IMG/VR virus record: IMGVR_UViG_3300043399_000877
Coordinates: 248,001-312,000 of that record
DNA: 64,000 nucleotides
Strand: one strand, 5' to 3'
Source: a virus
Under the pieces are notes generated by a model. That model did no database searches, was not told the DNA's origin, and saw only the letters and a program-made list of their open reading frames with translations. A program made the position numbers and the translations under genes. Below, piece by piece: positions 5,480-32,358 of this stretch (position 1 is its first letter; each line of letters opens with the position of its first letter).

Positions 5480-5489
5480 TGGATACACA

Positions 5490-6500: not shown

Positions 6501-6508
6501 TTAAAAAT

Positions 6509-7528: not shown

Positions 7529-7530
7529 AA

Positions 7531-9604: not shown

Positions 9605-9638
9605 CAATATCTAAAAATAGCTAAACAATAAATATTGC

Positions 9639-14445: not shown

Positions 14446-15051
14446 ATGATAATAAACGATGCAATGGAGATACCCGGGCAAACCGATGAGAAACAGCATC
14501 TCTGGTATCAAAAAATTATTGAGTGGTTCCATTATCCTCCTGCGGTGTTGGAAATAGGGTGTGCTTGGGGTAGAAGTTCATGGGCATGGTTGGATTGTAT
14601 GAACATGGATGGAAGTTATTTAGAAATTTTAGATAACTGGTCATATTCAAAAAATTTTAAACAACTTAACGGATTTAAACTATCTAATGAAACCTATTAT
14701 AAATTTATAAGTGATGTATCCCCCAATTACGATCAAAAAGAAATATTACTATATAATTTAAAGCAACATAAAAATTTTCAAAAAATTAAAAAAATTCATA
14801 CAGGCGTATATTCGGATGCATCAAAACATTATGATATTGTTTATTTAGACGATGATCATAGTCAAAAAAATGTATCAAATGAACTAGAGCATTTTAATGG
14901 TGTTCCAGTTATGTGTGGTGATGATTTTGAAAATACTCATCCAGGTGTTATAAAAGCAATTTGTAAATTTTATCACAATAATTTTAACAAATACAAGTTA
15001 TATATAGATCCTGATGCTAGGTTTTGGGCGTTAAAAAGAACGGACATGTAA
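14446..15051 (+). CDS. Class I SAM methyltransferase-like protein
   Basis: 201 residues. 'VLEIGCAWGRSS' (about 34-45) is motif I of SAM-dependent methyltransferases; 'YDIVYLDDDHS' and 'MCGDDF' follow, as in the small O-methyltransferase or cephalosporin-hydroxylase-like group often found beside glycosyltransferases. It starts directly after the oxygenase stop and its TAA overlaps the next ATG. Acceptor unknown. Confidence 0.68.
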   Translation: MIINDAMEIPGQTDEKQHLWYQKIIEWFHYPPAVLEIGCAWGRSSWAWLDCMNMDGSYLEILDNWSYSKNFKQLNGFKLSNETYYKFISDVSPNYDQKEILLYNLKQHKNFQKIKKIHTGVYSDASKHYDIVYLDDDHSQKNVSNELEHFNGVPVMCGDDFENTHPGVIKAICKFYHNNFNKYKLYIDPDARFWALKRTDM

Positions 15052-16208: not shown

Positions 16209-16219
16209 TTTACTATTTT
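16192..16219 (+). promoter_or_regulatory. Possible sigma70-type promoter
   Basis: TTGACG and TATTTT are separated by 16 bases, about 30 bases upstream of the ATG at 16250, in the longest gap of this plus-strand run. The -10 box is only four of six, so this is tentative. Confidence 0.35.
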
Positions 16220-16249
16220 TAAAAATTAAATATAACAAAAAGGTGTATA

Positions 16250-17227
16250 ATGGACTGGAATGCTGTAGTAATTATTAGAACAAATGCTAAGTCTATTGCA
16301 GAATCTGTAACAAATGAAATAAAGAACGAGTTCCCATACAGAACTTCTGAATTTTATAAATGTACTAGAGATTTGGAATTTATATTGCAAGCATTGTCGA
16401 CATGCATACAATTAGACAATACGCAAGCTGTTGATGATGTAATACGCATGTTCTACAAAGGTGGCAAACTTAGGTTAAAGTCGATCGATGTTGAGTTAAT
16501 AGCATATGATAAACTTAAATTAAAACTTTTTGAGCTATTGTCTAAAAATGAAATAAAAGATTCTACTAAAGAAATTATTTCAAATTGCATTATTTTATTA
16601 AAAACTTCGCTGAACAGTGGGTATATTGGTGTCGAACAATCCTGGGAATATAGAAAAAATTATAAAATTTTTACATCAGACCCTGTGCCTAAATATTTAG
16701 AAAATGTGATAGATAATATATTGATACATTGTCCTATGCAGGATTCTAAAACCACAGAATTTGTAATATTAAAAACAACTTATGATGACATAAAGTTGCG
16801 AGAAAACTTAACAAAACATATTTTTAAAAATGATGCTAGTGGATTTCATGAAATAGCTCCCATAACTGCACCGTTGGTTTATTATTGCTGTAATAAAACC
16901 AATCCTGAATCTAATTCTTTTTTGAACATAGGTTTGCACGGCGGCGCAGCACTTGCAGAAATTAGAAATAATGGTTTTGATTTTAGTTTTATAGGCTGCA
17001 CATCTGATAATGTTTCTAACAAAACAGAGAAGGAACTTATTAAACGCATTCAATCTCGATTTAATTTAGATTTTGATATATGCTTGCCGTGCGTTGCGTT
17101 TTGCATCGGAAAAGCAAACAGGGAAGTTAATACTATCAATGTATACAAATGTAAAGATGGGACTGAATTAAGATATAGAACAACACTTGAACCATCGGTA
17201 ATAAAACCAAAGGTTCTTTTTACTTAA
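16250..17227 (+). CDS. Nitroreductase-like protein with helical N-terminal region
   Basis: 325 residues. The C-terminal ~200 residues follow the nitroreductase/FMN-oxidoreductase pattern. 'DPVPKYLENVIDNILIHCPMQD' precedes the FMN site, then comes 'APITAPLVYYCC', then 'LNIGLHGGAALAEIRNNGFDFSFIGC' in the place of the family's long helix and turn, and finally 'VAFCIGKAN'. The first ~120 residues are helical, charged and unrecognised. If active it would be an FMN- and NAD(P)H-dependent reductase or dehydrogenase. The 3' end overlaps the convergent aminotransferase gene by eight bases. Assignment is by pattern only. Confidence 0.5.
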   Translation: MDWNAVVIIRTNAKSIAESVTNEIKNEFPYRTSEFYKCTRDLEFILQALSTCIQLDNTQAVDDVIRMFYKGGKLRLKSIDVELIAYDKLKLKLFELLSKNEIKDSTKEIISNCIILLKTSLNSGYIGVEQSWEYRKNYKIFTSDPVPKYLENVIDNILIHCPMQDSKTTEFVILKTTYDDIKLRENLTKHIFKNDASGFHEIAPITAPLVYYCCNKTNPESNSFLNIGLHGGAALAEIRNNGFDFSFIGCTSDNVSNKTEKELIKRIQSRFNLDFDICLPCVAFCIGKANREVNTINVYKCKDGTELRYRTTLEPSVIKPKVLFT

Positions 17228-18104
17228 TATTATTTTTTAAAAACCTTAGTAATGGCCTAACGCCCACTGGCCGGTCATCGAACGTTTTAGCCAAATGGAT
17301 TGCTTTTGTAGGTTTTAAATTAAAATCTTTTAAAACTTGCTGATATTCTTTTTCATAAGTCCTCCAAAAATATTCGGGACCAAAGTATTCCATAAATTTT
17401 ATGCCCATGCTTACGATAGCCTGACTATTCATATTAAAATCGTTCATTATAGTAATCGGGCCATTCTGGGTGCCCCTTGCAAATCTTAGGCCAATTCTGT
17501 TTCCGCCCAGTCCGCCCTTGCTGAGGCTTATGCAAAACGTATCTATTGCTGGGTGTGAAAAATCAAATTCTATATCTCGTATACAACTTATCCACGCTCC
17601 GTCAATGTGTACTTTTATCCCTAAATTATGACAGGCGTCCAATATTTCTTTCATTTGAGGGTGAATATCACCAAAGAACGGAAATGGCATAGCTATTAGT
17701 AGTTCTTTATTTGGGTCCAATGTTTCAACGGTTGTATACACAATGTTGGGATTTAACCTCCAATGATATTTGTAATCATTTTCAAATATCATCAAGTTGC
17801 CTTTTCGTTGATATAAATCGTCTATGTATTGAGTACATCCCTGTGTAATGTCGAGACGACTAAATTTATCTAAACCCGAAAACGTGCTGTATTTGTGGTC
17901 TTTAATCCATTTTACAAAATTTTCTTTAAATATCTCATCTAAATTACTAGTATGTATTGGATTTTCTACATAAAATTTATCATAAAATTTGTTTATGTTA
18001 GAGTCGTACATTGGTTGTGGACGATCATACTGCAACCATTCTTCTGTGTATTGTCTATGTGTGCTGTCTCTCATATAAATATTTATGTGTACTTTATAAT
18101 GCAA
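17220..18104 (-). CDS. PLP-dependent aminotransferase-like protein (fold type I)
   Basis: 294 residues, short for class I/II aminotransferases (about 380-400). 'KVHIDGAWIS' holds the Asp that contacts the PLP nitrogen; 'FCISLSKGGLGGNRIGLRF' holds the Schiff-base Lys (SLSK) and the phosphate-contact Arg region. The first ~60 residues are not typical. It is the only minus-strand gene in the first 25 kb. The start may be 18104 or 18074; neither has a clear ribosome site, and the second coincides with the TATAAATA element. Likely transaminates an amino acid or amino-sugar precursor; partner unknown. Confidence 0.65.
   Translation of the reverse strand: MHYKVHINIYMRDSTHRQYTEEWLQYDRPQPMYDSNINKFYDKFYVENPIHTSNLDEIFKENFVKWIKDHKYSTFSGLDKFSRLDITQGCTQYIDDLYQRKGNLMIFENDYKYHWRLNPNIVYTTVETLDPNKELLIAMPFPFFGDIHPQMKEILDACHNLGIKVHIDGAWISCIRDIEFDFSHPAIDTFCISLSKGGLGGNRIGLRFARGTQNGPITIMNDFNMNSQAIVSMGIKFMEYFGPEYFWRTYEKEYQQVLKDFNLKPTKAIHLAKTFDDRPVGVRPLLRFLKNNIK
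18074..18081 (+). promoter_or_regulatory. T4-late-type promoter TATAAATA
   Basis: An exact match to the T4 late consensus, 58 bases before the radical SAM gene at 18132, whose GGAG ribosome site lies at about 18121. It sits in a partly palindromic stretch (ATAAATATTTAT), so the other strand also carries a near match facing the aminotransferase gene. Confidence 0.55.
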
Positions 18105-18131
18105 ATAATAATGTGATTTTCGGAGAAATTA

Positions 18132-19229
18132 ATGAAAAAAAAGCCATTTTGCTATGCTCCATGGGTTTCTGTAAGATATCGGAATACGACAGATAATAGA
18201 GTGTCACCATGTTGCCAATGGAACGATGAACACTTTACAGGTAACATAACAGAATATTATAATTCTAAATTTTTAAAAAATGTAAAATCAAATATGATTA
18301 AACATAACATGAATGAAATATCCAAAACATGTATAGAATGTATAAATGCAGAAAAACATAATGTTGAATCCTCACGAGAATATTACAATAATGCTGTGCG
18401 CATGGGAACGTTTGTTCCTGGACAACTTAACAAACTAGATCTTAGACCAGATACTCTATGCAATTTAAAGTGCATTATGTGCAGTCCAAAAAGTTCTAGT
18501 TTAATTGAAGAAGAGTTAATAAAACACGAAAATTTTCAACCATTTGAGTACTCTGATACAACTGACGTTGTCGACTTAGATCTATCAAATTTAAAAGCTT
18601 TAAAATTAGTTGGTGGTGAGCCTACAATAAGTAAAAAAATGTTTTACATCATGGATCATTTAATAGAAAAAGATATCGCAAAAAATATAAGCATTGAATA
18701 TATAACAAATTGCACAAGTGTTAATAAAAAATGGTTATCTCGTGTTGAACAATTTAAAAAACATATGGTTACAATGTCAGTAGACGCAACTGGTAAGTGT
18801 TTTGAGTACATTCGTCATGGTACTTCATGGGAACTAGTTGAAAGAAATATATTAAAGTTAACGGAAATAGCAGACGATTATGATTTTAATATAGTTGCAC
18901 AAGCAACAAACTTTGCAGTAATTGAAGATTGGTTTGAATATTTTATTCAATATGACATTCAGCATATCAGAATGTCGCATTTTTACGGAGATTATCCATT
19001 GGGCCTTAATGTTATACCTGATTACCTAAAACAAGAAAAAATAAATTATCTTGAAAAATTTGATCATCCACTTGCAACTCAGGCAATCACTTATCTTAAA
19101 AATTCTAAGTTTAGTAAAAAAACATTTGACTTATTTTGGAAAAATACTGAAATACGCGACAAAAGAAGAAATGTAAGCATTTTTGATGTGAGTCCGGTAT
19201 TTGAAAAAATGAAAAATAGTCACATGTAA
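18132..19229 (+). CDS. Radical SAM protein with N-terminal cysteine (twitch-like) module
   Basis: 365 residues. C7, C27-C28 ('SPCCQW') and C67/C70 ('TCIECINAEKHN') come before the core C110, C114 and C117 ('LCNLKCIMCSP') and 'LVGGEPTI'. The ATG is preceded by CGGAGAAATTA, a strong ribosome site. It heads a second plus-strand block after the inverted aminotransferase and is followed by a QueC-like ATPase gene. Confidence 0.85.
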   Translation: MKKKPFCYAPWVSVRYRNTTDNRVSPCCQWNDEHFTGNITEYYNSKFLKNVKSNMIKHNMNEISKTCIECINAEKHNVESSREYYNNAVRMGTFVPGQLNKLDLRPDTLCNLKCIMCSPKSSSLIEEELIKHENFQPFEYSDTTDVVDLDLSNLKALKLVGGEPTISKKMFYIMDHLIEKDIAKNISIEYITNCTSVNKKWLSRVEQFKKHMVTMSVDATGKCFEYIRHGTSWELVERNILKLTEIADDYDFNIVAQATNFAVIEDWFEYFIQYDIQHIRMSHFYGDYPLGLNVIPDYLKQEKINYLEKFDHPLATQAITYLKNSKFSKKTFDLFWKNTEIRDKRRNVSIFDVSPVFEKMKNSHM

Positions 19230-19249
19230 CCGGATAGGCAAGATACTAG

Positions 19250-19257
19250 AATAAATA
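19250..19257 (+). promoter_or_regulatory. Late-promoter-like AATAAATA
   Basis: Seven of eight bases of TATAAATA, 20 bases upstream of the ATG at 19277. It lies in a short intergenic gap with GGGG six bases before that ATG. Confidence 0.35.
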
Positions 19258-19276
19258 TGTTAAATTGGGGATCAAC

Positions 19277-20008
19277 ATGGATAACAAGTTCTTTATACCT
19301 GACAATGTAACAGGTATAGTTATAAAATTGTCAGGTGGTGCTGACAGTTCTATACTATATTATGGGTTATGTAAACACATAGTTGAGAACAATTTAAGTA
19401 TACCTATATATGTAACATCTATGGACACAAATAGAAAACCTTGGTACAGCCATTATGCAAAAAAAGTCATAAATTTTACAAAACAAGAAACTGGAATATC
19501 ACCCGTAGAGCATAGAATTCATTTCTTAGACGGCAACTGGACTATGGATGATTATGTACAAACTCAACATGATTTAATGATGTCAGTTATTGATGACAAA
19601 CTTGCAAATGTGGCGTATAGCGGGTTAACTCAAAATCCAACTAGAAAAGATTTACACAGAACTCGAAAACATAAAGATTTTAACAAAAACGGTTTAAAAT
19701 ATCTTGATGAAAATCTAAACGGAACAGATTCTAGTAGAAATGATCATTCAAATAAAAAAGTAGTAAATTACAACGGGCACTTCATAATGATCAATCCGTT
19801 TATACACAAAACAAAAAAAGAAGTATTTAACTGGTATAAACATTATAATGTACTAGATACTCTTTTTCCATTAACTTATAGTTGTGAAGAATCAGATAAT
19901 GAATACAAGAAGTTAATTAAAGTTGAAGACGGGTTTGCAGAAATGTCGCACTGTGGATTTTGTTGGTTTTGCATGGAACGTATATACGCATTTGGAAGAC
20001 TCGTATGA
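19277..20008 (+). CDS. QueC/ExsB-like PP-loop ATPase (copy 1)
   Basis: 243 residues. 'SGGADS' at 19-24 is the PP-loop of N-type ATP pyrophosphatases, which adenylate a carboxylate or carbonyl. The C-terminus has 'YSCEES' and 'HCGFCWFCMERIYAFG', the four-cysteine zinc site (C...CGxCxxCxxR) of QueC, the preQ0 synthase. The rest is divergent, so it may convert 7-carboxy-7-deazaguanine to an amide or nitrile, or activate an acid made by the island. ATG 19277 follows GGGG; TTG 19265 is less likely. The stop overlaps the next ATG. A related copy is at 23451. Confidence 0.72.
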   Translation: MDNKFFIPDNVTGIVIKLSGGADSSILYYGLCKHIVENNLSIPIYVTSMDTNRKPWYSHYAKKVINFTKQETGISPVEHRIHFLDGNWTMDDYVQTQHDLMMSVIDDKLANVAYSGLTQNPTRKDLHRTRKHKDFNKNGLKYLDENLNGTDSSRNDHSNKKVVNYNGHFIMINPFIHKTKKEVFNWYKHYNVLDTLFPLTYSCEESDNEYKKLIKVEDGFAEMSHCGFCWFCMERIYAFGRLV

Positions 20009-21228
20009 CACCATGTATTTTGCCTTGGATAAATTTTAGTACTAATACATTTGGTAGACCAAGAACTTGCGGTTATGCCGATCAAGCTGTAGTCAAAAGA
20101 GCACAAGTTAAATTAAAAGGCAGTAGTATAGAAGACGAATGGAATAACGATTATTTTAAAAAGATACGCAGAGACTTTTTACAAGGCGAGTGGCCTGAAA
20201 ATTGCAAACGATGTGAGTACGTGGAACAACTAAATGGTTCCAGTAAGCGTATAGAAGAAAACAAATATCATTATGAGTCAAATAAACATTTAATTGATTC
20301 TACAGCGCCAGACGGTAGCGTCCCATATTATCCGCCCAATATTGATATTAGAGTGGGTACAATATGTAATTTAAAGTGCATTCATTGCGGAACTGGTGCA
20401 AGCAGCAAGTGGAATGAAGACAAATCCTTATTAAATAAATACCCAAATACTGAATTTTATAACATTGACAACAAATGGATAGAACAAGATAGCTTTATTT
20501 GGGATAACATAAAAGAAAACTTGAGTAGTACCCGTAAGTTTAATTTCTTAGGAGGCGAACCGTTTGCAAATAAGCAACATAACCGGTTTATTAAAGAAGT
20601 ATGTGACACTGATGCTGCTAAAGAAATAACACTGACATATGTGAGCAACGGAACACTGTTAACAGACACCATTTTTCAGCAACTTGTGAAATTTAAAGAA
20701 GTCATTATCAGACTAAGTTTAGATGCTATCGGAATTCCGGGAGAATATTTTAGATTTCCGATATCATGGAAAACATTTAAAACAAAACTAGAATTAATGC
20801 AAAAATATGCAAACAATAATCCGCATGTTGACATTGGGGTCCAGTGGACTTGTAGCAATATAAGCATGTTCTATCTAGTTGAAACATATGATTTTATAAA
20901 ACAGCATTATCCTAATATTAAGTTTATTTTTGCGAATCATGTTGAGTGGCCAATTCATATGAGTGCGCAAGTTTTGCCGCATGAATTAAAAAAAATAACT
21001 CAAGATAAAATTGAGTCATATAATTTTGAAAATAACTCCCAGTACGTTCCATTTTATATAAGCCATATGTGCGAAAAAGATTTATGGGGTACTCACGGAA
21101 ATACATTTATGAATTATTTAGATGACCTAGACGCAGCCAGAAAAATAAGTTGGAAAGACAGTTTTAAAGAAATGGAATTACAGAAATATGATCCCAGATG
21201 CAACAACCATATGAATGAAATGAAATAA
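20005..21228 (+). CDS. Radical SAM protein with N-terminal cysteine (twitch-like) module
   Basis: 407 residues. The N-terminal block has C4 ('PCILPW'), a single C22 where relatives have CC, and C67/C70 ('NCKRCEYVEQLNGS'). The core is C121, C125 and C128 ('ICNLKCIHCGT') with 'FLGGEPFA'. The ATG overlaps the stop of the PP-loop gene (GTATGA), so the two are co-translated. The loss of one N-terminal Cys may alter or remove the extra cluster. Confidence 0.84.
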   Translation: MTPCILPWINFSTNTFGRPRTCGYADQAVVKRAQVKLKGSSIEDEWNNDYFKKIRRDFLQGEWPENCKRCEYVEQLNGSSKRIEENKYHYESNKHLIDSTAPDGSVPYYPPNIDIRVGTICNLKCIHCGTGASSKWNEDKSLLNKYPNTEFYNIDNKWIEQDSFIWDNIKENLSSTRKFNFLGGEPFANKQHNRFIKEVCDTDAAKEITLTYVSNGTLLTDTIFQQLVKFKEVIIRLSLDAIGIPGEYFRFPISWKTFKTKLELMQKYANNNPHVDIGVQWTCSNISMFYLVETYDFIKQHYPNIKFIFANHVEWPIHMSAQVLPHELKKITQDKIESYNFENNSQYVPFYISHMCEKDLWGTHGNTFMNYLDDLDAARKISWKDSFKEMELQKYDPRCNNHMNEMK

Positions 21229-21270
21229 AATAAATGTTTGTGTAATCTGGCGAGTTGGTATATATATAAT

Positions 21271-22395
21271 ATGAAAATTAATATGTCTGAAGATTTAAAA
21301 TGGAGTGAATATGATTTTACAAAAATCCCATTTGACGATATCGTACAAGTAGGTCAAAGAACTCTTTTGTATCGAGATCTTTTTACCGTTAGTTGGTTGC
21401 TTGGTCGCTTTTGCAATTACCGGTGTAGCTATTGTTGGCCATATGCAAGATCAAATACAAAAGATCATCGACCAACCGACCTATGCCTCAAAACAATTGA
21501 TGAGATCAAACGACAAGCTAGAGAAAACGGATTCAATAGTTTCCATTTCAGTCTCTCAGGAGGAGAACCAACGTTTCATCCCGGATACCTCGAGATATTA
21601 AAGTATCTTGCCGACGACACTCCGAATACAAATTATACTAGCATACACATGACCAGTAATTGTAGTAGAAATATGGCATGGTTTGAGCAATATGTTGAAT
21701 ATGCAAAACCATTTCATAGAGCAAGTATCACAGCTAGTTTACACACCGAGCATGTAAACACTCCTGAGCGAATGCAAGAATTCGCAGACAAGTTGATTTT
21801 TTGTCAAGAACATGACGTCCAGGTCACTATTAACATGGTAATGGTACCTGAGTGGTTTGAGCGTGATTGGGAAAATGCTCTATTTTTTCATGAGCAAGGC
21901 ATAAATGTAACGCTAAAACCACAAAGTGATCCCACTGCCAGTCGAGTAGTAGATGGGTATTCACAAGACATGCTTAATCGTTTATGGAACGGTATGCCAC
22001 AGCGGGCGTATACTGAAAGTAAAAGAAAATGGGCTAGTCGCCCTCAACCCAAGTTTGTAGTGCCAGTAGTTAATGGTGTTGACGACAAATCTGTACCTGC
22101 ACATATGCAGATTGAATTTGTAGACAAAAACGGAAAAAAATGGTATATGGACCAAGCAGAGCGGTTCAACGCATTTGGATTTAACAAGTTTAAAGGTTGG
22201 AGTTGCAACAGTGGTTATCAGGGAATAATCATACGCGAGCCCGACGGGAGTATAAAAAGATCATACAGTTGCCACGATGTTCCACTTGGCAATATAGAGA
22301 CTGGATTTAAATTGTTTAAATCCCCCATGCCGTGTACTACTGAAAGCTGTGTGAGTAGTGCGGATAGTAAAATACCAAAACAAAGGAAGGATTAA
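21271..22395 (+). CDS. Radical SAM protein, third type (pair with 8648)
   Basis: 374 residues, with C48, C52 and C55 ('FCNYRCSYCWP') and 'LSGGEPTF'. The C-terminus carries 'WSCNSG', 'YSCHDVPLGN' and 'PCTTESC', a possible auxiliary cluster. I used ATG 21271; ATG 21283 is possible, and the TTG at 21238 is less likely. TATAAT lies directly before 21271 but has no -35 partner. Related to the protein at 8648. Substrate unknown. Confidence 0.82.
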   Translation: MKINMSEDLKWSEYDFTKIPFDDIVQVGQRTLLYRDLFTVSWLLGRFCNYRCSYCWPYARSNTKDHRPTDLCLKTIDEIKRQARENGFNSFHFSLSGGEPTFHPGYLEILKYLADDTPNTNYTSIHMTSNCSRNMAWFEQYVEYAKPFHRASITASLHTEHVNTPERMQEFADKLIFCQEHDVQVTINMVMVPEWFERDWENALFFHEQGINVTLKPQSDPTASRVVDGYSQDMLNRLWNGMPQRAYTESKRKWASRPQPKFVVPVVNGVDDKSVPAHMQIEFVDKNGKKWYMDQAERFNAFGFNKFKGWSCNSGYQGIIIREPDGSIKRSYSCHDVPLGNIETGFKLFKSPMPCTTESCVSSADSKIPKQRKD

Positions 22396-22399
22396 AAAC

Positions 22400-23464
22400 A
22401 TGCCAATATGTAAAGCACTCTATAACCAAGTATGTGTTGAAATCGGTGGAGTTTATAAACCATGCTGTTCATATGTTGGGGACAGTGGTATATCAGTAAA
22501 CGACATGACCCCAAATGAATTTTTAAAATCTGATTATATAGAAAATATAAGAAAAAACATGGAAGGGGATTTATGGGATTCCGGTTGCGTTGGATGCAAA
22601 GTGCGTAGTGAATCTGGGCTCCACACGTTGAAAGATACCTATGACTTTTATTGTAAATCTGATATAGGTACTTTTGAAATGATTGAAATTTCAGTAAGTA
22701 ACAAGTGTAATAACCAATGCAGAATGTGCGATTCTAGGCACAGTAGTTTATGGCAAAATACTTTGGGTTTTGGTAATTCTCCTAAATCTTATTATGATTT
22801 GCAAGCATTAATGAATAATCTAGACGGCAGTGATATAAAGGTAATAAAATATTTAGGTGGTGAACCATTAATAACTGATGAAATAAATCAAGTCTTCGAT
22901 TTTATCAAAAAAAATAAAGAAAATAAAATTTCATTTTATTTTAATACTAACCTATCAGTACCTCCAGAAAAATATCTTAGCGAATTTGAAAATATAGAAA
23001 AATTTGTGATTGGGTATAGCATTGACGGTGTAGGCGCAACTAATGAATATATAAGAGATGGAAGCAATTGGGACACTGTTGTTAGGAATTTAGATAAATG
23101 GGAAAAATTCTTTGAATCCAGATCCGATCAGAGTGAAAGATACGTCCACACCGTATTACAAGCATACAACTATCATGATATTGAAAATATATATAAGTTT
23201 AGTAGTTCGTATGGGTTAGAGCATTTTACACCTCCTATAATTGCGCCACATGAGTTTACATTAAATGCATTGCCTAAAGAGTATATAGAAAAGTATGCCA
23301 CCAGTAGAACGGCAAAATATGTTGATAACCATTCATATAATGCATCGTTGTACGATAAATTAGTAAAAACAACAATTTATCATGATAAGTTATTTCAAAA
23401 ATCAATAAATAATTTTATACCTGAATTGTATTTTTTAAGTAAGAGCAATAATGATACACCATGA
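22400..23464 (+). CDS. Radical SAM protein with N-terminal cysteine (twitch-like) module
   Basis: 354 residues. C4, C22-C23 ('KPCCSY') and C63/C66 ('GCVGCKVRSESG') precede the core C103, C107 and C110 ('KCNNQCRMCDS') and 'LGGEPLIT'. AAGGAAGGA lies before ATG 22400. It resembles the protein at 12501 and overlaps the second PP-loop gene by 14 bases, again coupling a twitch-type enzyme to a QueC-like ATPase. Confidence 0.85.
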   Translation: MPICKALYNQVCVEIGGVYKPCCSYVGDSGISVNDMTPNEFLKSDYIENIRKNMEGDLWDSGCVGCKVRSESGLHTLKDTYDFYCKSDIGTFEMIEISVSNKCNNQCRMCDSRHSSLWQNTLGFGNSPKSYYDLQALMNNLDGSDIKVIKYLGGEPLITDEINQVFDFIKKNKENKISFYFNTNLSVPPEKYLSEFENIEKFVIGYSIDGVGATNEYIRDGSNWDTVVRNLDKWEKFFESRSDQSERYVHTVLQAYNYHDIENIYKFSSSYGLEHFTPPIIAPHEFTLNALPKEYIEKYATSRTAKYVDNHSYNASLYDKLVKTTIYHDKLFQKSINNFIPELYFLSKSNNDTP

Positions 23465-24104: not shown

Positions 24105-24947
24105 ATGACAGTTAAACCTTTTTTTATAAGTTTGCCTAGATCGAGATCTACAATACTTTATGACAGGATGGAAGGATATGCGCTTACAAAGTTGGGGATG
24201 TCTAGGATAGTTGGGCATCCTGAATTCTTTTTAGAATTTTCTCACACTGACATGTATTTTAACACAAAAACACAGCGGTATGATGACTTAGAATTATACC
24301 CTATTCCTAATGATAATAGAATTGATATGCATTTTATATATCCACATGTATTCAATAATTCTATTGATAGAATACGACATAAAATGAATGTGCTCAAACA
24401 TGAAAAAGACAACGGTAGAGATTACTACTTCAAGGGTACTATGAATATTTTTGATAGTTATCAAGAAATAATTGATTTTTTTGCTGACAGAAAAATTATA
24501 ATTACCAGAAGGCATGATATAGTTGAAATGGCAATATCATATCTTTATGCAAGAAATGTAAAGTTGTTCCACGCAAAAGGTAACAATTATGACTATTATA
24601 CTTCTGTACTGGCAAAGGGAACAGAGATTAATGAATCTGAATTAGAAGATATGCCCGAATACATAAAGTATTTGACATTTGTTGATAACGTTGAACATTA
24701 CATAAAAGATAAAAATTACAATTATTGTGTTACATACTATGAAGATATGGAAACTGATGACATGATAAACTCAAAGATAGATGAAATATACGAAACAACT
24801 GAATGGCGAAATAGCGTAAAAACAACGGAGGCATCTACACCTATAAAGGTTGAAAAAAAATATTCAAATGTAATTAAGAATTATACAGACGTTAGATCAC
24901 ATTTAGAAAATATAGTTAAGGAAATAAGAAGTGAAAAACTTTTATGA
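24105..24947 (+). CDS. Sulfotransferase-like protein
   Basis: 280 residues. 'FFISLPRSRSTIL' at 6-18 is the 5'-phosphosulfate-binding loop of PAPS-dependent sulfotransferases; 'KIIITRRHDIVEMAISYLYA' fits the 3'-phosphate-binding segment (Arg plus Ser). It would move sulfate from PAPS to a hydroxyl or amine, perhaps on a sugar or on the cluster product. It starts directly after the PP-loop stop and overlaps the next gene by 17 bases. Confidence 0.72.
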   Translation: MTVKPFFISLPRSRSTILYDRMEGYALTKLGMSRIVGHPEFFLEFSHTDMYFNTKTQRYDDLELYPIPNDNRIDMHFIYPHVFNNSIDRIRHKMNVLKHEKDNGRDYYFKGTMNIFDSYQEIIDFFADRKIIITRRHDIVEMAISYLYARNVKLFHAKGNNYDYYTSVLAKGTEINESELEDMPEYIKYLTFVDNVEHYIKDKNYNYCVTYYEDMETDDMINSKIDEIYETTEWRNSVKTTEASTPIKVEKKYSNVIKNYTDVRSHLENIVKEIRSEKLL

Positions 24948-25515
24948 AATTAATGACTTGCCCATTTTGGATTTAACAAGTGAGTACGACAACCTAATAA
25001 AAGAAGGTAGAATATGGTATTCTGAAAGAGAACCAAATCAAATATGTTTAAATTCAACAATCAATAAACTTAATGATATGCATTACGGTGCTGGCAGCTT
25101 GGTGTTTGATTGGGACTTGGTTGGAACACTTGACGATTCGGGAAACGTCATAACGTCGCCGACGTTAAGAGAAACTCCATTAGAGGAAAGTGATTTTACA
25201 GAATTATGCTCTCAGTTTAAAGGAACGTTATTCGAGGATGCATATGTTGCATTACAAAAAAAATACAATCTTGGTAGAGTAAGGATAATGCGATCAAAAC
25301 CTAAAACTTGTTTATCTTGGCATTACGACTATGATGTCAGAGTACATTATCCATTAAAAACGTATGAGGGGTGTTTGATGGTTATAGAAGATGAAGTTTG
25401 CCACCTTACTGCTAATAAATGGTGGTATACAGAAACTCAAAAAATGCATACTGCATTCAACGCAAGTGCCCAGGAGAGAATACATTTAGTAGCTACAGTC
25501 ATTTCTAGTAAGTGA
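24931..25515 (+). CDS. Aspartyl/asparaginyl beta-hydroxylase-like 2OG oxygenase
   Basis: 194 residues from a GTG at 24931 with AAGGA upstream. 'SWHYDYDVRVHYPL' (H131, D133) gives HxD and a downstream Arg/His set; 'KWWYTETQKMHTAFN' supplies H173 and 'QERIHLV' the 2-oxoglutarate Arg (R183). This order is that of the AspH-like family. The ~110 N-terminal residues are unassigned. It ends the plus-strand island, and its last codons form one arm of a hairpin shared with the convergent gene. Confidence 0.66.
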   Translation: MKNFYEINDLPILDLTSEYDNLIKEGRIWYSEREPNQICLNSTINKLNDMHYGAGSLVFDWDLVGTLDDSGNVITSPTLRETPLEESDFTELCSQFKGTLFEDAYVALQKKYNLGRVRIMRSKPKTCLSWHYDYDVRVHYPLKTYEGCLMVIEDEVCHLTANKWWYTETQKMHTAFNASAQERIHLVATVISSK

Positions 25516-25533
25516 TTACTCACTTACTAGAAA
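25502..25533. terminator. Bidirectional terminator-like hairpin across two stop codons
   Basis: A perfect 14-base inverted repeat (TTTCTAGTAAGTGA, loop TTAC, then its complement). The left arm contains the TGA of the plus-strand oxygenase, the right arm the TAA of the minus-strand homospermidine synthase. T-rich bases flank both sides only weakly, so factor-independent termination is likely but not certain. Confidence 0.65.
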
Positions 25534-26874
25534 ATTAACGAATTGACATTTTTCGTCAAATTTAAAATCTGATTTCACAAAAATATAATTTCCCAAATAT
25601 GGTTTTGCATATTCTAAAATTATATCATGTGGTAATTCGTCTGGTTCAAGAATACCACAGTTGGGATTGTCATTAATCCAAATCATGGCAGCAAACAGCG
25701 GGGCAACTACTTGAAGACTAGTTGCATTGTTATGGTTTATAAGTGACCGAGTTTCGTCAATACTCAATTGACTTCCTAGCCAATATGAGCCAAAGTCTCC
25801 CATAAACAAAACACCCAACTCATCCATCCCGCCAACAAGGGAATCTGTCATGATCCTCGCAGCATCTTGGCCTTTAAGTCCCCTGCTGACAAGCTCTTCA
25901 AGGCTCTCTACAGCCACGTCGCATGGGTGATATGCGTAATGCACAGTGGGCCTATAATCATCAGTTGACAAGTACTCTGCAATAGATATGGATTCTTGGT
26001 GTGTTATTAGAAATCCAATTATTTCCTTATGCGTGGGAGTCCAAGTCTTTACTTTGGTTGCGCAACCTGGTTTGTTTAAAAAGATAGCACTTTTAGAACC
26101 GTATGCGTGTTCTTCACCCAGCGGCGGAAGACCGGCTTCGTGTGTACCCCATCCAAGTTCTGCTGGAAGTATTCCCTCGGCTATAAATCCGTCGACACTC
26201 CACGTATTCACAAATTGATTAGATTTTTTGGGCTCCAGGTCAAATTGTGAATCTCTTTCTGAAACATGTATCGTCTTAAGTCCTATTCTTTTTGCAAGTT
26301 CCGCCCACTGAGATTTGTTAGATGGTATATCGAATTCTATATTTAATTCATTTGCAATTTTAACTATACCATCTTTTACTATGTGATTTACCATTCCTGG
26401 ATTAGCACCATGCGATACAACCGCAGTTGGTCCATTGGTTTTTGTTTTCCGATAGTTTAACAGTGAGTGTCGTAGTGCATAGTTAGATCGTTCGCTATTT
26501 GAAAGTTTAAAATTGTCAAAAAACCCGACCCACGGCTGGATACAAGTATCAATATAGTTCATATTTCTTGATGAACAGTAATCTATCAAATCCTGTGATG
26601 ACACGTCGACTGTTAAATTAACTATAAAATCACCGGGTAAAGTATGTTCGTCTAAGATTGAAACATAGTTGTCCTTTTGTAGGGTTTTCTCAATACGTGT
26701 TAAATTGTATTGAGAAGTTACGTCGTTATTTCTCAAATCTTCCGATATTATTTTAACATTTGGATTTTTTAAATGCTTGAATAATAGTGGAATAAGAGCC
26801 ACTGAGATGCTTCCCGCTCCCAAAATAACTATATTTTTTTTAAAATTCTCAAATATCGTAGTAATCTTTGTCAT
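25516..26874 (-). CDS. hss: Homospermidine synthase
   Basis: 452 residues, typical for bacterial homospermidine synthase (about 470). This NAD-dependent enzyme joins two putrescines, or putrescine and spermidine, to give homospermidine. N-terminal 'IVILGAGSIS' is the Rossmann loop of the saccharopine-dehydrogenase-like fold. 'YIDTCIQPWVGFF', 'VSHGANPGMVNH', 'GWGTHEAGLPP', 'YAYHPCDVAV' and 'GGMDELGVLFMG' are blocks I associate with this family. It is the last gene of the operon with the decarboxylase at 30066, which would supply putrescine. Homospermidine is common in alphaproteobacteria, where the gene may have come from. Confidence 0.85.
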   Translation of the reverse strand: MTKITTIFENFKKNIVILGAGSISVALIPLLFKHLKNPNVKIISEDLRNNDVTSQYNLTRIEKTLQKDNYVSILDEHTLPGDFIVNLTVDVSSQDLIDYCSSRNMNYIDTCIQPWVGFFDNFKLSNSERSNYALRHSLLNYRKTKTNGPTAVVSHGANPGMVNHIVKDGIVKIANELNIEFDIPSNKSQWAELAKRIGLKTIHVSERDSQFDLEPKKSNQFVNTWSVDGFIAEGILPAELGWGTHEAGLPPLGEEHAYGSKSAIFLNKPGCATKVKTWTPTHKEIIGFLITHQESISIAEYLSTDDYRPTVHYAYHPCDVAVESLEELVSRGLKGQDAARIMTDSLVGGMDELGVLFMGDFGSYWLGSQLSIDETRSLINHNNATSLQVVAPLFAAMIWINDNPNCGILEPDELPHDIILEYAKPYLGNYIFVKSDFKFDEKCQFVNFLVSE

Positions 26875-28117
26875 CTTCTTTAAATCCTCTCGCTAAGAAG
26901 TCGTTAGTAGTTGTTCTTATAACTTGCCAATTCGCAAATGATTTATCAGTTACGATATCTTTTATAGGATGAATAAATTGGCTCATGGGTTTTTTACGCC
27001 AGTCAATATCTTGTATTGTGGCGATAGTTAATTCATGAAGTTCTTTGTTATGGTGTTTAAATAATGCTTCTTTAACAAACTCATATCCAGTTACTTTTTC
27101 GTAAAAATTTAAATGTTTTGAACCATATTTCATACTTATACGCCGTTTAAAATCGTAGTCAACAGTAGTGGTGTTCAACACTTCTGGTATTGAAATATAA
27201 GAAAACACTTGTTCGGGGCTATACATAAAAAAATCATAAACGCATACGTTATTAGTTAAATGCACCCATGTGGGGGCTGACAGACCTATTGAATACGAGC
27301 AATCTCCTATACACACTTCATTTTTTGAATTCATCTTCATTTCTACTTGATCAGACGCCATAATTGGAACGCCGCCTATCGAGTTTATGTATTCTATCAT
27401 GTATTGCTGTGTATAAAGATATGGTAGTAAAAAATAGGTTTCGTAAATTCCTTTTATAAAATAGTCCCTGTGCCGATTGTCATAAAGGTCATTTAAAATG
27501 TAAACATCTTTTGTTCTCAGTGTCAAATCAAATCGTTTACATAAATCCACAGCAGTTTTTATATCGTGTTCGTTTAACACCTCATCATTGTGTTTATATA
27601 CCATAGTAAATGGTATAAAATCTACTCCCGCTTCTATAAAAGCCAATGCCATGAGTTCTGAATCTAAACCACCGCTTAGGCATAGGTAGATATCACCGTA
27701 TCTATTTTTAATGTCAACAGCACTCTTTTTGCATTCGTCCCACCAACTTCCAATGTTTTCAGTTTCGGGAATTTTAAATTTTTCTATAAATGGTAATTCT
27801 GGTATTTTTGGAAGTGCTGTAAGCCCGTACCCAAACTCCAAATGTGAATTTTTTGAAAATCTGCAAATATTGGGTGATTTGAAATTTTTGTTTACTAGGT
27901 AATAGTTGCAAATTTCAGAACCCACCATCACCTTTACTGCCTTGTGCGAATCTGTTTTTTTAATAGTTATGGATTCATAAGGGTCACAAACCTTATACGG
28001 TATACTGGAGAGATTGTATTTGCCAGGCGGGACATAGACAGCGGGGTGTGGTATCAGTGGCTTCTTGAATTGTTTGTAAAGAAAATTCTCCACATCTGAA
28101 ATGTACAATTTTGACAT
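26849..28117 (-). CDS. Asparagine-synthetase-like PP-loop protein without glutaminase domain
   Basis: 422 residues. 'LCLSGGLDSEL' (SGGLDS at 148-153) is the ATP-binding motif of the asparagine synthetase/beta-lactam synthetase AANH fold, which adenylates a carboxylate for amide formation. The first ~140 residues do not start with the catalytic Cys of a glutaminase domain, so ammonia would come from elsewhere or an amine such as a polyamine could attack. It overlaps homospermidine synthase by 26 bases and follows the AMP ligase without a gap. Substrate unknown. Confidence 0.68.
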   Translation of the reverse strand: MSKLYISDVENFLYKQFKKPLIPHPAVYVPPGKYNLSSIPYKVCDPYESITIKKTDSHKAVKVMVGSEICNYYLVNKNFKSPNICRFSKNSHLEFGYGLTALPKIPELPFIEKFKIPETENIGSWWDECKKSAVDIKNRYGDIYLCLSGGLDSELMALAFIEAGVDFIPFTMVYKHNDEVLNEHDIKTAVDLCKRFDLTLRTKDVYILNDLYDNRHRDYFIKGIYETYFLLPYLYTQQYMIEYINSIGGVPIMASDQVEMKMNSKNEVCIGDCSYSIGLSAPTWVHLTNNVCVYDFFMYSPEQVFSYISIPEVLNTTTVDYDFKRRISMKYGSKHLNFYEKVTGYEFVKEALFKHHNKELHELTIATIQDIDWRKKPMSQFIHPIKDIVTDKSFANWQVIRTTTNDFLARGFKEDDKDYYDI

Positions 28118-29503
28118 TTATTCTACGTTGTTTACTAATTCTTGTCTTTTTATTTTTCCGTTATAAGATACTGGAATTCTTTTTATTTTAACAAACTTAC
28201 ACTCATAAATCAAGTAGTTTTTTTTCAAAATGTTCAATATTTCAGGATACAATTGTTCGGCAACATTCAAGCATAGTACAACTATTTCTTCATTTTTTTG
28301 ACTAACCAACACATCAATATTAAGTTGTTCTTTTATTTTACGTTCTATGGTGTGTGGAAACAACATGGTATTTTTCACAGTTATGGCGTCTTTTTCACGG
28401 CCCATCAATACCAAATCATTATTTTTTGTAAGATATCCATAATCCCCAGTGTTAAACCAGCCATCGATCGACAGCGGGGTAATTCCATTTTGTGGAGTAT
28501 AGTAACCTTTCGCGATAGTGGGGCCTGACAAATGCACAACACCCTCAACGTTGTTAAACGCATCATTTTTTAGAAATGTTAGATTTAACGAGTCTATTAT
28601 TTTTCCAACTCCTTCTTCGTAACCATTGTTTATGCTTATAGTGGCTGTAGTTTCAGTCATACCATAACCATTTACTAACGGTAATTTAAAAAAGTCTGTT
28701 ATAAACTCGTGGTCTTCTTTTTTAATAGAATCTCCACCATAAGAAATGTATCTTATGCTTTTTGCATTAAACTTTTTTTCTTTCATAATAGTGGTAAGTC
28801 TAACCAATCCTACAGGTGTAAACGAAACCATAGAGATGTTATATTTTTTAAAATCTTTTAACTGAGACATACTAAATTTGTTGCTAACATAAATGCATGC
28901 CTCTGAAAATATAATACCTAGCGACAAGTTTAAACCAAAAACAAATGTGGCTGGTAATATGAGATACAATACGTCGTTACTTGATACATTTCGGTTTTTT
29001 TTGGTAAGTGCTGCTCCGTGTAACAAATTGGAATCTGTTAGAAATGCTATTTTTATTTTTCCACTGGTTCCTGATGTGTGCAGCATTATTCCCTCTTCTT
29101 GGAGAGATGGATCAACAGTTGTATTAATTTTAGCAAATTTAAAATTTTCTAACTTATCAAATTTAGCATCTAACAACAGTTTACTTTTGGAAGTTGTAAA
29201 AATAAAATTTGGAAGAGAACTATGTAGAATACTGTCTAATTCAGAGTCAGTTATGTTCTCGTTCACCAGTATCGGAATAGCACCGATTTTTTTAAGAGCA
29301 AAAAATAAAACAAAAAAATCTATCGAGTTACCACCGATGTACATAACTTTGTGGAATTTTTTAATACCGACGCTGTCAAGCGTAACAGAAAGGTCGTCAA
29401 CATGTGTATAAAAATCGAAATACGTTAGGACTCTTTTCGAGTCAATTAACGCTTTTGATAAAAGATTCTTTTTATTTTCCAATAAGTCATATACACGATT
29501 CAT
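28118..29503 (-). CDS. AMP-forming acyl/aryl ligase (ANL superfamily)
   Basis: 461 residues. 'HTSGTSGK' near 142-149 is the P-loop (motif A3), 'NGYGMTETTATIS' is A5 and 'GWFNTGDYGYL' with 'LMGREKDAI' is A7-A8. It would activate a carboxylic acid as acyl-AMP and pass it to CoA, a carrier or an amine. It is shorter than the usual ~500-550, mostly in the N-terminal part. I used ATG 29503, which overlaps the upstream TGA; ATG 29521 would add six residues. In this operon it could supply the acyl group for the GNAT-like protein at 29500. Confidence 0.8.
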   Translation of the reverse strand: MNRVYDLLENKKNLLSKALIDSKRVLTYFDFYTHVDDLSVTLDSVGIKKFHKVMYIGGNSIDFFVLFFALKKIGAIPILVNENITDSELDSILHSSLPNFIFTTSKSKLLLDAKFDKLENFKFAKINTTVDPSLQEEGIMLHTSGTSGKIKIAFLTDSNLLHGAALTKKNRNVSSNDVLYLILPATFVFGLNLSLGIIFSEACIYVSNKFSMSQLKDFKKYNISMVSFTPVGLVRLTTIMKEKKFNAKSIRYISYGGDSIKKEDHEFITDFFKLPLVNGYGMTETTATISINNGYEEGVGKIIDSLNLTFLKNDAFNNVEGVVHLSGPTIAKGYYTPQNGITPLSIDGWFNTGDYGYLTKNNDLVLMGREKDAITVKNTMLFPHTIERKIKEQLNIDVLVSQKNEEIVVLCLNVAEQLYPEILNILKKNYLIYECKFVKIKRIPVSYNGKIKRQELVNNVE

Positions 29504-30069
29504 TCTTCTAACATTTTCCATTCATCAACAGTTATAGTGTCGAAAGGCAACGTCGATCCATTAAAAGATTTAAACATTACTTTTTGATAAGCTGATTTTT
29601 TAAATGATGTGGGAACTACCCGGATCATATTTTCCATTATAACCCAGTCATGATAGAACTCAAGTTTGCTTTTTGCTTTTTTGAAATATAATTCTGACTT
29701 GTAGTGTTCTCTTGAATTAAACACGATAGATATGTCGTCTTTGTGTTTATTCACTTGATGTGGTACAATATACATTGGATTGTAAAAATCATATATTTTA
29801 TTTCTAAATTTTGGATTTACAAATGTTCTATTAGAACTTCTGTATATTCCCTGACCCCATCCCGGCCTAGAATACAGTCCACTAAAACACACTATTTCAT
29901 CATCTTCATTAGTAAGTAAGTCAAAAGAAAGATGGTTTTTCAAATCCATCTTTTCATAAGTATAGTTTTCTGCACGTTTGTCATCCACAGCCGATAGCAT
30001 ATCAAACATCTTTTTAAGCGAGGTGCTGTCTGTCACCTCGCCATGTGATACAACATTTACAATTTTCAT
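29500..30069 (-). CDS. GNAT-acetyltransferase-like protein
   Basis: 189 residues. 'DEIVCFSGLYSR' followed by 'GIYRSSNRTFVNPKFRN' resembles strand 4 and the region before the acetyl-CoA loop in phage GNAT-like proteins; the canonical QxxGxG/A loop is not clear. 'FNSREHYKSELYFKKAKS' and 'DWVIMENMIRV' fit the C-terminal half. If it is an N-acyltransferase, the polyamine or its precursor is an obvious acceptor, but this is inference. Overlaps both neighbours by four bases. Confidence 0.42.
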   Translation of the reverse strand: MKIVNVVSHGEVTDSTSLKKMFDMLSAVDDKRAENYTYEKMDLKNHLSFDLLTNEDDEIVCFSGLYSRPGWGQGIYRSSNRTFVNPKFRNKIYDFYNPMYIVPHQVNKHKDDISIVFNSREHYKSELYFKKAKSKLEFYHDWVIMENMIRVVPTSFKKSAYQKVMFKSFNGSTLPFDTITVDEWKMLEE

Positions 30070-31202
30070 TTTAATACTACTACTTTTAATTTATCAAAAC
30101 CGTTAAATTGTGTAGAATACACACTGGTATATGCACCAGTATTGTGTATTAGTATTTTGTCCCCTGCCTTGACTTTAGACGGAAGCTTTGGTTTATAGCG
30201 CTCGTATAGAATGTCACCACTGTGTAATGTTGGTCCAGCGACAATAAACTCTTCCGATTCTCCTGTTACGTTTGGGACAGACAGTCCATATTTGAATACT
30301 TCGCCATCTGTGCTGTATAGACCTCCAAAGCGGCCAATATTTAAATACAACCATCTATGAGAATCATTGTCGTCTTTTTTACTAGCTAAAATGACCTCAG
30401 CTGCAATTATACCGCAATTTGCAACCATTGCCCGACCAGGCTCGGCTATCAAGTGTTCGACGGTTCCAAATTTTTGGGTTATTGTGTTTTTTAGTACCCG
30501 GCAATACTCTGGAATTTCGGTTATAGCTTCATCATATTCAGAAGGGAAGCCGCCACCTATGTTGAGTAAATTCATGGTATGACCGTATTCTTTAGCAGTA
30601 TTCCATAGGTCAGAAATAGTGTCTAAACTTTCGAACCATTGTTGTGGATGCAGGGTCTGCGACCCTATATGAAAACTTAAACCAACAATTTTAACGTTTA
30701 ACGTTTTACTTTTTTCAAGTATTGACAGTGCCATGTTTGGACTGCATCCAAATTTTTTACTAAGTGGGCGTTTTGCTCCAGTATCTCCTAGAAGTACTCT
30801 CAAAAAAACATTACCGCCGGGAGCATAATTTGATATTTTTTCTACTTCTTCCACAGCGTCAGCAGCAAACAAGTTCACTCCCATCTTGTGTGCATACTTT
30901 ACATCTCGTATAGTTTTTATGGTACTTCCATAACTTATTGATGAAGGAGACGCCCCTGCTTCTAAACACATTTTTATTTCGTTAGCACTCGCAGCGTCAA
31001 AATTACTGCCAAGAGCTACCAGAGTTTTAAGAACTTCTTTGTTCGGATTTGCTTTTATAGCATAGTGAATTTTAAAATTGGGGAGATTATTTTTAAAAAC
31101 TTCAAAGTTTTCTTTTACTTTATCTAAATCTAAAATAAGGGTGGGTTTTTTAAAAGTTTTGTCTAATGCGTATTTGTGAAGTTTTTCCATCTTACTATCC
31201 AT
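30066..31202 (-). CDS. Ornithine/lysine-decarboxylase-like PLP enzyme (fold type III)
   Basis: 378 residues. 'HYAIKANPN' carries the PLP lysine (about K50), then 'FHIGSQ', 'NIGGGFPS' and 'AEPGRAMVA' for phosphate and ring contacts. 'GDTGAKRPLSKKFG' and 'NIGRFGGL' match bacterial ornithine/lysine decarboxylases, so putrescine production is the best guess. The catalytic loop, usually GPTCDSxD, reads 'GPTLHSGD': the Cys donated across the dimer and the following Asp are Leu and His. It may therefore use another acid or be altered in reaction. First gene of the operon. ATG 31202 directly follows a hairpin; 31190 is an alternative. Confidence 0.75.
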   Translation of the reverse strand: MDSKMEKLHKYALDKTFKKPTLILDLDKVKENFEVFKNNLPNFKIHYAIKANPNKEVLKTLVALGSNFDAASANEIKMCLEAGASPSSISYGSTIKTIRDVKYAHKMGVNLFAADAVEEVEKISNYAPGGNVFLRVLLGDTGAKRPLSKKFGCSPNMALSILEKSKTLNVKIVGLSFHIGSQTLHPQQWFESLDTISDLWNTAKEYGHTMNLLNIGGGFPSEYDEAITEIPEYCRVLKNTITQKFGTVEHLIAEPGRAMVANCGIIAAEVILASKKDDNDSHRWLYLNIGRFGGLYSTDGEVFKYGLSVPNVTGESEEFIVAGPTLHSGDILYERYKPKLPSKVKAGDKILIHNTGAYTSVYSTQFNGFDKLKVVVLK

Positions 31203-31205
31203 GTT

Positions 31206-31228
31206 GGGTGGGTGTTTATAGCCCACCC
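31206..31228 (-). terminator. GC-rich hairpin before the decarboxylase start
   Basis: GGGTGGG and CCCACCC pair around a nine-base loop. On the minus strand the stem ends four bases before the ATG at 31202 and lies 14 bases after the fibre gene's stop. There is no T-run, so it may be a weak terminator, a 5' stabilising stem or a translational control element. Confidence 0.5.
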
Positions 31229-31236
31229 TTCATAGA

Positions 31237-31244
31237 TATTTATT
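31237..31244 (-). promoter_or_regulatory. Late-promoter-like AATAAATA
   Basis: Seven of eight bases of TATAAATA on the minus strand, overlapping the stop codon of the fibre gene. A start six or seven bases downstream would place the 31206-31228 hairpin at the very 5' end of the mRNA. Confidence 0.42.
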
Positions 31245-32358
31245 ATGACGCAGCTACCCCAGTGTCCAAGTTGATCCAACCACCATTTTGGTATCCTTCA
31301 AACTTGTTGTTTGTAGTGTTGTATATAACCATTCCATTTACTGGAGTTAGTGCATCTCTCTGGACTGTGGTCAAGTTTCCAAATTGTACAAAACCCGATG
31401 CTTTTACGTTACCCCTCACATCGAGTTTTTCAGAAGGAGTAAACGTGCCTACGCCTAAGTTTGAATTCTTGGAAAAAACAACATATGTTGACTCGTCAAA
31501 AGTGACACCATACTGACCGTATGCTATGAATATACCACCGTTGTCAGCACCGATTGTTGCCTTTGTTGAACTACCCTCGGCGTCGTGTTTTTCAAAATCA
31601 AGTCTTCCATATAGCATTGAGTCGTCAACAACTCCAGTCTGGTGTCTTTGGAGTTTAATAGTTGACAAATTGTTATTGCCTTTTATGATTACTTTGGTTA
31701 AACTGGAGTCATCGTTGTCTAAAATTAATGATTCTGTAAAATTAATTAGTCCAACGTTTACTGAATTGTTTGAAGAATCTACTATAATAGAGCTGTCTGC
31801 ACCAACAATGTTTATATTATACGAACCGCCACTTACGATCCCGACATTAGTAAGCAAACTGCCGTCACCTATAAATTTTCCATAAATTTCATTAGTAGCA
31901 GAATTTACTATAATAGAACTGTCATCGCCAAAGACTGAACCACGCAGGCTTCCGGTCAAATCTCCAACAAAGTTTCCAGTAACCGTATTTGTATCACGGT
32001 TTAAAATGATACTGCTATCAGCGCCAACCACGTTTATGCTGTAAAATCCACCATCAACTATGTCACTGACATTTGGTAAATTAACAAGCTGGCTACCATC
32101 ACCGACAAATTTGGTAGCAGTTACTATCCCAGTGATAGTTATGTCACCGGTTCCAGTAATATCATAATTGTTTAAATTCATGTTCCTCGTAAGGACATCT
32201 GGAGACTCGGTTAAGTCTCCGCTTATTAGTATGCCACCAAGAGTTACACCGTCGCCCACAAATAAAGATTTTGTGTCGGTTGTGTATACAAGTTCGCCTT
32301 CTGCAAATATGACTGCCTGTCTTTCAAGGTCAGTTCCACGTCGCAATCTTAAAGCCAT
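31243..32358 (-). CDS. Fibre-like virion protein with repeats
   Basis: 371 residues, starting 'MALRLRRGTDLERQAVIFAEGELVYTTDTKSLFVGDG', cut here into its blocks 'LRLRRGTDLER' and 'GELVYTTDTKSLFVGDG', which are typical of marine phage tail-fibre or hook proteins. The middle holds repeats of the form '(V/I)VGADSSII...N.V.G', with 'GDDSSII' between. The C-terminus ('LTPVNGMVIYNTTNNKFEGYQNG') is also common in fibre tips. CAGGAG precedes the ATG, and an exact TATAAATA lies upstream, consistent with late expression. Confidence 0.7.
   Translation of the reverse strand: MALRLRRGTDLERQAVIFAEGELVYTTDTKSLFVGDGVTLGGILISGDLTESPDVLTRNMNLNNYDITGTGDITITGIVTATKFVGDGSQLVNLPNVSDIVDGGFYSINVVGADSSIILNRDTNTVTGNFVGDLTGSLRGSVFGDDSSIIVNSATNEIYGKFIGDGSLLTNVGIVSGGSYNINIVGADSSIIVDSSNNSVNVGLINFTESLILDNDDSSLTKVIIKGNNNLSTIKLQRHQTGVVDDSMLYGRLDFEKHDAEGSSTKATIGADNGGIFIAYGQYGVTFDESTYVVFSKNSNLGVGTFTPSEKLDVRGNVKASGFVQFGNLTTVQRDALTPVNGMVIYNTTNNKFEGYQNGGWINLDTGVAAS

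Follow-up and report, generated by a model that had tools for sequence, protein, structure and literature searches.

A conserved jumbo-phage operon combining a homospermidine synthase homologue with ligase-like genes and an ornithine decarboxylase homologue that lacks the catalytic cysteine

Gene content and recurrence of the operon

Five minus-strand open reading frames fill positions 25516-31226 of the window, the whole 64-kb stretch of DNA that was analysed, which was taken from a virus record of 381,886 bp (bases 248001-312000). They encode a homospermidine synthase homologue (HSS; 25516-26874, 452 aa), a HUP/PP-loop ligase-like protein (HUP; 26849-28117, 422 aa), an AMP ligase (28118-29521, 467 aa), a GNAT-like protein (29500-30069, 189 aa), and an ornithine decarboxylase (ODC)-like protein, here designated ODC* (30066-31226, 386 aa); in this order, neighbouring genes overlap by 26, 0, 22, and 4 bases. 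The start codon of ODC* is a GTG at 31226 or, alternatively, the ATG at 31202 that was chosen in the first-pass annotation. The terminase of the phage is 56% identical to those of the Pseudomonas PA5oct-group jumbo phages and 48% identical to that of Sinorhizobium phage Phosso, and the phage is therefore grouped with the T4-like jumbo phages. The operon is located in a hypervariable cargo locus bordered by an Mtd_N-type tail-fibre gene (31243-32358, minus strand; Pfam Mtd_N, 5.9e-8). The G+C content of the window is about 34% over 1-30 kb versus about 41% over 32-64 kb, and a switch of strand and skew at the operon end near 25.5 kb marks the cargo island.

Scans of IMG/VR with single proteins (HSS, ODC-like, HUP, and GNAT-like) found no relatives; operon relatives were recovered only by a scan with a backbone protein, the neighbouring metallopeptidase, which yielded 80 sister loci. 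In 40 of these, the sequence continues for 3 kb or more beyond the tail-fibre gene; operon genes are present in five of the 40, and these five carriers represent two lineages besides the window (G044/G045 and G046-G048). Some of the remaining loci carry different cargo at the operon site; given this and the small number of carriers, retention of the operon is not default synteny. G044/G045 contain the full operon in the same order (ODC*, GNAT-like, AMP ligase, an extra gene, HUP, and HSS), with identities to the window of 64% for ODC*, 58% for the GNAT-like protein, 47% for the AMP ligase, 61% for HUP, and 62% for HSS; the product of the extra gene (286 aa) resembles a 2OG oxygenase by eye. 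G046-G048 contain only the GNAT-like (68%), HUP (65%), and HSS (72-73%) genes, with the same HUP-HSS overlap as in the window and no ODC* at the locus. Thus, GNAT-like-HUP-HSS is the conserved core, and the decarboxylase and AMP ligase, which are present or absent together at the operon locus, are an optional extension. In each of the three lineages, which are independent but belong to related phages and share one locus, the operon comes after the Mtd_N tail-fibre gene; in G044, a subtilisin-like protease gene (by eye; L193:4081-5652) intervenes between the tail-fibre gene and ODC*. With Pfam and PDB matches of E = 1e-26 to 1e-109 and three to five orthologues in identical order on independent contigs, the operon is well beyond chance. 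The initial description of a phage-borne five-gene minus-strand operon is thus borne out, and the operon is conserved as a unit in other phages.

Substituted residues in HSS and ODC*

Judged by its sequence, the HSS gene is unmistakable in family and full-length fold: its product matches Pfam Sacchrp_dh_C (1e-26) and Sacchrp_dh_NADP (9e-23), and residues 11-429 match a solved homospermidine synthase (PDB 2ph5; E = 3.7e-109), in agreement with the earlier assignment. The protein shares with BvHSS and LpHSS (PDB 4plp and 2ph5) the fold family, the full length, and eight of the nine mapped catalytic residues, where N158, E206, W225, E233, H292, E294, Y313, and D351 of the phage protein correspond to N162, E210, W229, E237, H296, E298, Y323, and D361 of BvHSS. 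It differs from them at Glu117, a residue of the ionic slide, which is replaced by Gln113 in the window (CAG codon at 26536-26538, minus strand, in the motif YIDTCIQPW). The corresponding residue is Gln in the HSS of the window, G044, and G047 and thus in all three phage lineages, including the G047 lineage with a normal ODC, whereas the six further HSS in the alignment, one from Motura and five encoded on plasmids, have Glu. In BvHSS, the E117Q mutant has 1.5% of wild-type activity (PMC8489232). The substrate of the window HSS would be putrescine or, given Gln113, a less charged one.

ODC* is, by homology, a member of the alanine-racemase-fold ODC family, as indicated by its matches to Pfam Orn_Arg_deC_N (6.6e-58) and to VvLODC in the PDB (E = 1e-60); the PDB neighbours include antizyme inhibitor 1. 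It is 45% identical to alphaproteobacterial ODC (odc2, of the ornithine/lysine decarboxylases) and 41% identical to Phosso ODC, and the PLP-site residues are common to all of them (K58, D77, E83, R143, H186, S189, G224, E262, R265, and Y366 in ODC*). In ODCs, Cys360 controls product formation, and Asp332 and Asp361 contact the substrate (PMC5518511). In ODC*, the catalytic Cys360 is replaced by Leu334 and the substrate-binding Asp361 by His335 (TTA CAC codons at 30222-30227, minus strand), so that GPTCDSAD of the alphaproteobacterial and Phosso enzymes reads GPTLHSGD. The GPT/S-CD-S motif is invariant in seven canonical relatives, and Cys occupies position 360 in the G047, Phosso, and bacterial ODCs; GPTLHS is found in the window and G044. 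The Leu-His pair is therefore fixed in both ODC*-carrying lineages across 64% identity, and since the Leu codons differ between them (TTA and TTG), the change is held at the protein level. These changes occur only together with the AMP ligase. Loss of D332 was also considered as an ODC*-specific feature and was rejected, because the canonical phage and bacterial ODCs of the clade also have Ile at this position.

In a phylogenetic tree, the two ODC* proteins group together (100/100) and, separated by a long stem (0.97), are placed next to the canonical G047 ODC (87/81). The latter is a stand-alone ODC with an intact Cys-Asp pair that is 51% identical to ODC* and is encoded outside the operon (L198:9060-10238; G047:279060-280238), more than 200 kb from the GNAT-like-HUP-HSS genes. 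No second ODC was found in the record that holds the window (G000), and a scan of GTDB genomes with the ODC-like protein found no relatives. The first-pass annotation counted the decarboxylase and HSS as two clear polyamine genes. This does not hold, as the former belongs to the ODC family but has lost the key residues Cys360 and Asp361, and the latter carries Gln for Glu117.

Ligase-like genes and the possible product of the operon

HUP has no Pfam match over the cut-off, including to the Asn_synthase domain and the N-terminal glutaminase domain; the weak profile matches (MnmA and NadE, residues 142-224) and an SGG(L/I)DSE PP-loop motif that is conserved in all three lineages are consistent with an N-type ATP-pyrophosphatase-like core and a putative ATP-dependent ligase. 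In a low-confidence model (pLDDT 47), the fold neighbours are NadE (NAD synthetase), CarA (carbapenam synthetase), TtuA, and AsnB, together with the tRNA enzymes MnmA and TilS/MesJ. Of the initial label "AsnB-like ATPase," the ATPase core is thus retained and the asparagine synthetase domains are not. An alignment-based scan of bacterial genomes with patterns from outside the PP-loop found no relative of HUP. Shorter SGG-DSE proteins are present in other sister cargo loci.

The AMP ligase matches Pfam AMP-binding (6.7e-44) and contains the motifs TSGTSGK, GYGMTET, GDYG, and a C-terminal NGKIKR with the catalytic Lys. By sequence it is a complete class I adenylate-forming enzyme of the ANL type, in line with the earlier label "AMP ligase"; it has no close relative among plasmids or phages (25-26% identity). 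The GNAT-like protein has no Pfam match. In a fold search with a model of pLDDT 64, the C-terminal half of which is of low confidence, all 50 matches listed are GNAT-family structures (best E 2e-3). The acetyl-CoA loop Q/RxxGxG/A, present as REKGVG in the GNAT of G004, is absent from all three orthologues, which together with the missing Pfam match qualifies the earlier "GNAT-like" label. A route via a carrier protein was dropped, since no PF00550 domain was found in the genome by a search that recovered its controls.

The product of the operon is probably other than plain homospermidine, because ODC* and HSS lack residues on which standard polyamine enzymes depend. From the gene set, its order and overlaps, its conservation, and the substitutions, all of which were observed directly, we infer the following chemistry and tentatively favour, with a confidence somewhat short of even, a conserved jumbo-phage operon that makes a homospermidine-type conjugate over one for plain homospermidine supply. 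The GNAT-like-HUP-HSS core would make a homospermidine-type triamine and couple it to a carboxylate partner in an ATP-dependent step. HSS would join two aminobutyl units from putrescine or a less charged substrate by using its bound NAD+, and HUP would adenylate a carboxylate, from which AMP is displaced by the amine, as in AsnB/NadE-type ligases. The AMP ligase may activate an acid, which the GNAT-like protein may bind or transfer. In the window and G044/G045, ODC* and the AMP ligase would extend this core by supplying another building block. Since Leu-His replaces Cys-Asp, ornithine would no longer be the main substrate of ODC*; its substrate for decarboxylation is most likely an amino acid or a conjugate that has no distal positive charge. 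The product may have its role inside infected cells, or it may be directed at molecules of the virion or host surface that the neighbouring cargo genes handle. The idea that the three further genes acylate or ligate the amine accords with their conservation and with their plausible ability to activate and transfer acyl or amine groups. Similarly, of the initial proposal that homospermidine is joined to a product or a base, conjugation is the best-supported part, because the conserved HUP adjoins HSS and an analogous cluster occurs in phage Motura. The missing acyl-CoA loop of the GNAT-like protein and the missing PF00550 domain speak against the conjugate model, which is also limited by the assignment of HUP and the GNAT-like protein from weak profile matches and low-confidence models, and by a recurrence confined to three lineages of related phages.

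A simpler alternative is a supply pathway in which putrescine from ODC* is turned by HSS into free homospermidine, to be used in translation, replication, or charge neutralisation of DNA, with the other three genes being incidental. The ODC and HSS families represent the two steps of a known route, Tupanvirus, which has both, makes homospermidine (PMC9992855), and the G047 genome encodes HSS as well as a canonical ODC. We consider this rather unlikely for the window, given the loss of Cys360 and Asp361 from ODC* in both lineages, the HSS substitution that leaves so little activity in BvHSS, the lack of a second ODC, and the conservation of the GNAT-like protein and HUP alongside HSS in the lineage that has neither ODC* nor the AMP ligase at this locus. 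Neutralisation of packaged DNA by homospermidine, as initially suggested, finds no support in the present analysis. The substitutions in ODC* and HSS could instead mean that both enzymes have been repurposed, such that the ligases make a carboxylated or acylated amine, ODC* decarboxylates the conjugate, and HSS couples it, yielding a new amine that is not homospermidine. The loss of cation-recognising residues from both enzymes (Asp361 to His and Glu117 to Gln), the pairing of ODC* with the AMP ligase, and the long stem of the ODC* pair would fit such a scheme, which we regard as equally unlikely given that HSS retains all other putrescine-binding residues, that its Gln is also found in G047 next to a normal ODC, and that there are only two ODC* lineages. 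Cys360 mutants of ODC shift toward decarboxylative transamination. It is tempting to speculate, though as a rather unlikely possibility, that ODC* and the Gln113 HSS have together given up cationic diamines as substrates. The AMP ligase or HUP would make the acylated or carboxylated amine, ODC* would subject it to a novel decarboxylation or to decarboxylative transamination, and HSS would couple the result, giving an aminobutyl conjugate of a kind so far undescribed, which adjacent cargo enzymes might attach to tail-fibre or surface molecules.

Two further explanations concern single proteins. ODC* might have lost catalysis altogether and, as a pseudoenzyme, bind or regulate a different protein in the manner of the animal antizyme inhibitors, one of which is among its PDB neighbours, while the core makes the product. 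This would explain the loss of the catalytic Cys and the substrate Asp as well as the absence of ODC* from the locus in G046-G048; it is nevertheless improbable, as all mapped PLP-site residues are kept and 64% identity between the ODC* lineages implies a maintained site. HUP, which has TtuA, MnmA, and TilS/MesJ among its fold neighbours, might join a polyamine to a nucleobase in tRNA or in the phage DNA, by analogy with TilS (lysidine) or phage putrescinyl-thymine. For this we see very little chance: the operon lies in tail-fibre-adjacent cargo, away from the DNA-metabolism genes, and the thymidylate synthase appears to be of the ordinary kind. A search for the hmdU-kinase helical domain gave no match, although the positive control was also unmatched; DNA hypermodification, and with it the base part of the initial proposal, is thus without support.

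Comparison with known systems and neighbouring cargo

Phage HSS and viral ODC are already known, some of them biochemically proven (PMC9992855). To our knowledge, the gene set and the substitutions are new, in contrast to viral polyamine metabolism as a category; the literature searched contained no description of the five-gene set, of the GNAT-like-HUP-HSS unit, or of a Leu-His ODC. Viral polyamine genes are commonly viewed as topping up the host spermidine pool. The coupling of HSS to ATP-dependent ligases in a conserved operon, with amine-recognition residues altered in both former polyamine enzymes, suggests that a modified polyamine is produced by some jumbo phages themselves. The operon thereby offers a concrete test case for phage use of conjugated polyamines, and ODC* provides a naturally occurring enzyme of the ODC fold that lacks the catalytic cysteine.

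The Tupanvirus and chlorovirus pathways likewise combine a virus-encoded decarboxylase with HSS; however, their decarboxylases are demonstrated active ODC/ADC, and HUP, GNAT-like, or AMP ligase partners have not been described for them (PMC9992855). In Achromobacter phage Motura, HSS is located one gene from glutathionylspermidine synthase (PMC9992855). As in the window, a large phage thus carries HSS (37% identical) close to an ATP-dependent polyamine-conjugating ligase, but this ligase is glutathionylspermidine synthase and not HUP, no adjacent GNAT-like, AMP ligase, or ODC gene is annotated, and the Motura HSS keeps Glu117. The hsv ligases are ATP-grasp enzymes. The phevamine/hsvABC-type pathway (PMC13123061), with an amidinotransferase and ligases around a polyamine, is alike by analogy only, because the ligase families differ and the phage amidinotransferase is nearer to inosamine-phosphate amidinotransferase than to HsvA.

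This amidinotransferase gene (L022:11622-12536), the closest match of which is inosamine-phosphate amidinotransferase, lies about 1.5 kb left of the window, and in all three operon lineages it is found at the far end of the cargo island, 25-30 kb from the operon. It is not claimed as a pathway member, being distant and also present in G071 and G073. A link to uronic acids via UDP-glucose dehydrogenase (175-1419) was dropped, since the gene is not common to the other operon carriers. The rest of the cargo island in the carriers shares radical-SAM and further cargo with the window, where positions 4403-23464 hold an extended array of genes for radical-SAM, QueC-like, and methyltransferase-like proteins, many of which are 65-92% identical in G044. 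An Asp/Asn beta-hydroxylase-like oxygenase gene (24931-25515) converges end to end with HSS and has a 63% orthologue at the matching place in G047.

Polyamine-related genes also occur in other contexts. The same cargo locus of G004 (L108:15368-18842 and L107:1402-2702) contains genes for a PotD-like protein, an ABC ATPase-like protein, and two membrane proteins that resemble permeases by eye, followed by genes for a HUP protein and the canonical GNAT; the PotD-like protein matches a spermidine/putrescine-binding protein (E = 4.6e-53). The Motura, G004, and Alteromonas plasmid contexts, the last of which is described below, point to conjugation or polyamine traffic as a recurring theme, which is no proof for the window operon. 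A Pseudomonas aeruginosa plasmid (L209) carries a row of HSS, an unknown gene, an EamA transporter, and a GNAT. On an Alteromonas mediterranea plasmid (L210), an HSS homologue is flanked by a cyclic-peptide exporter on one side and a large NRPS on the other, which suggests that homospermidine serves there as a peptide building block.
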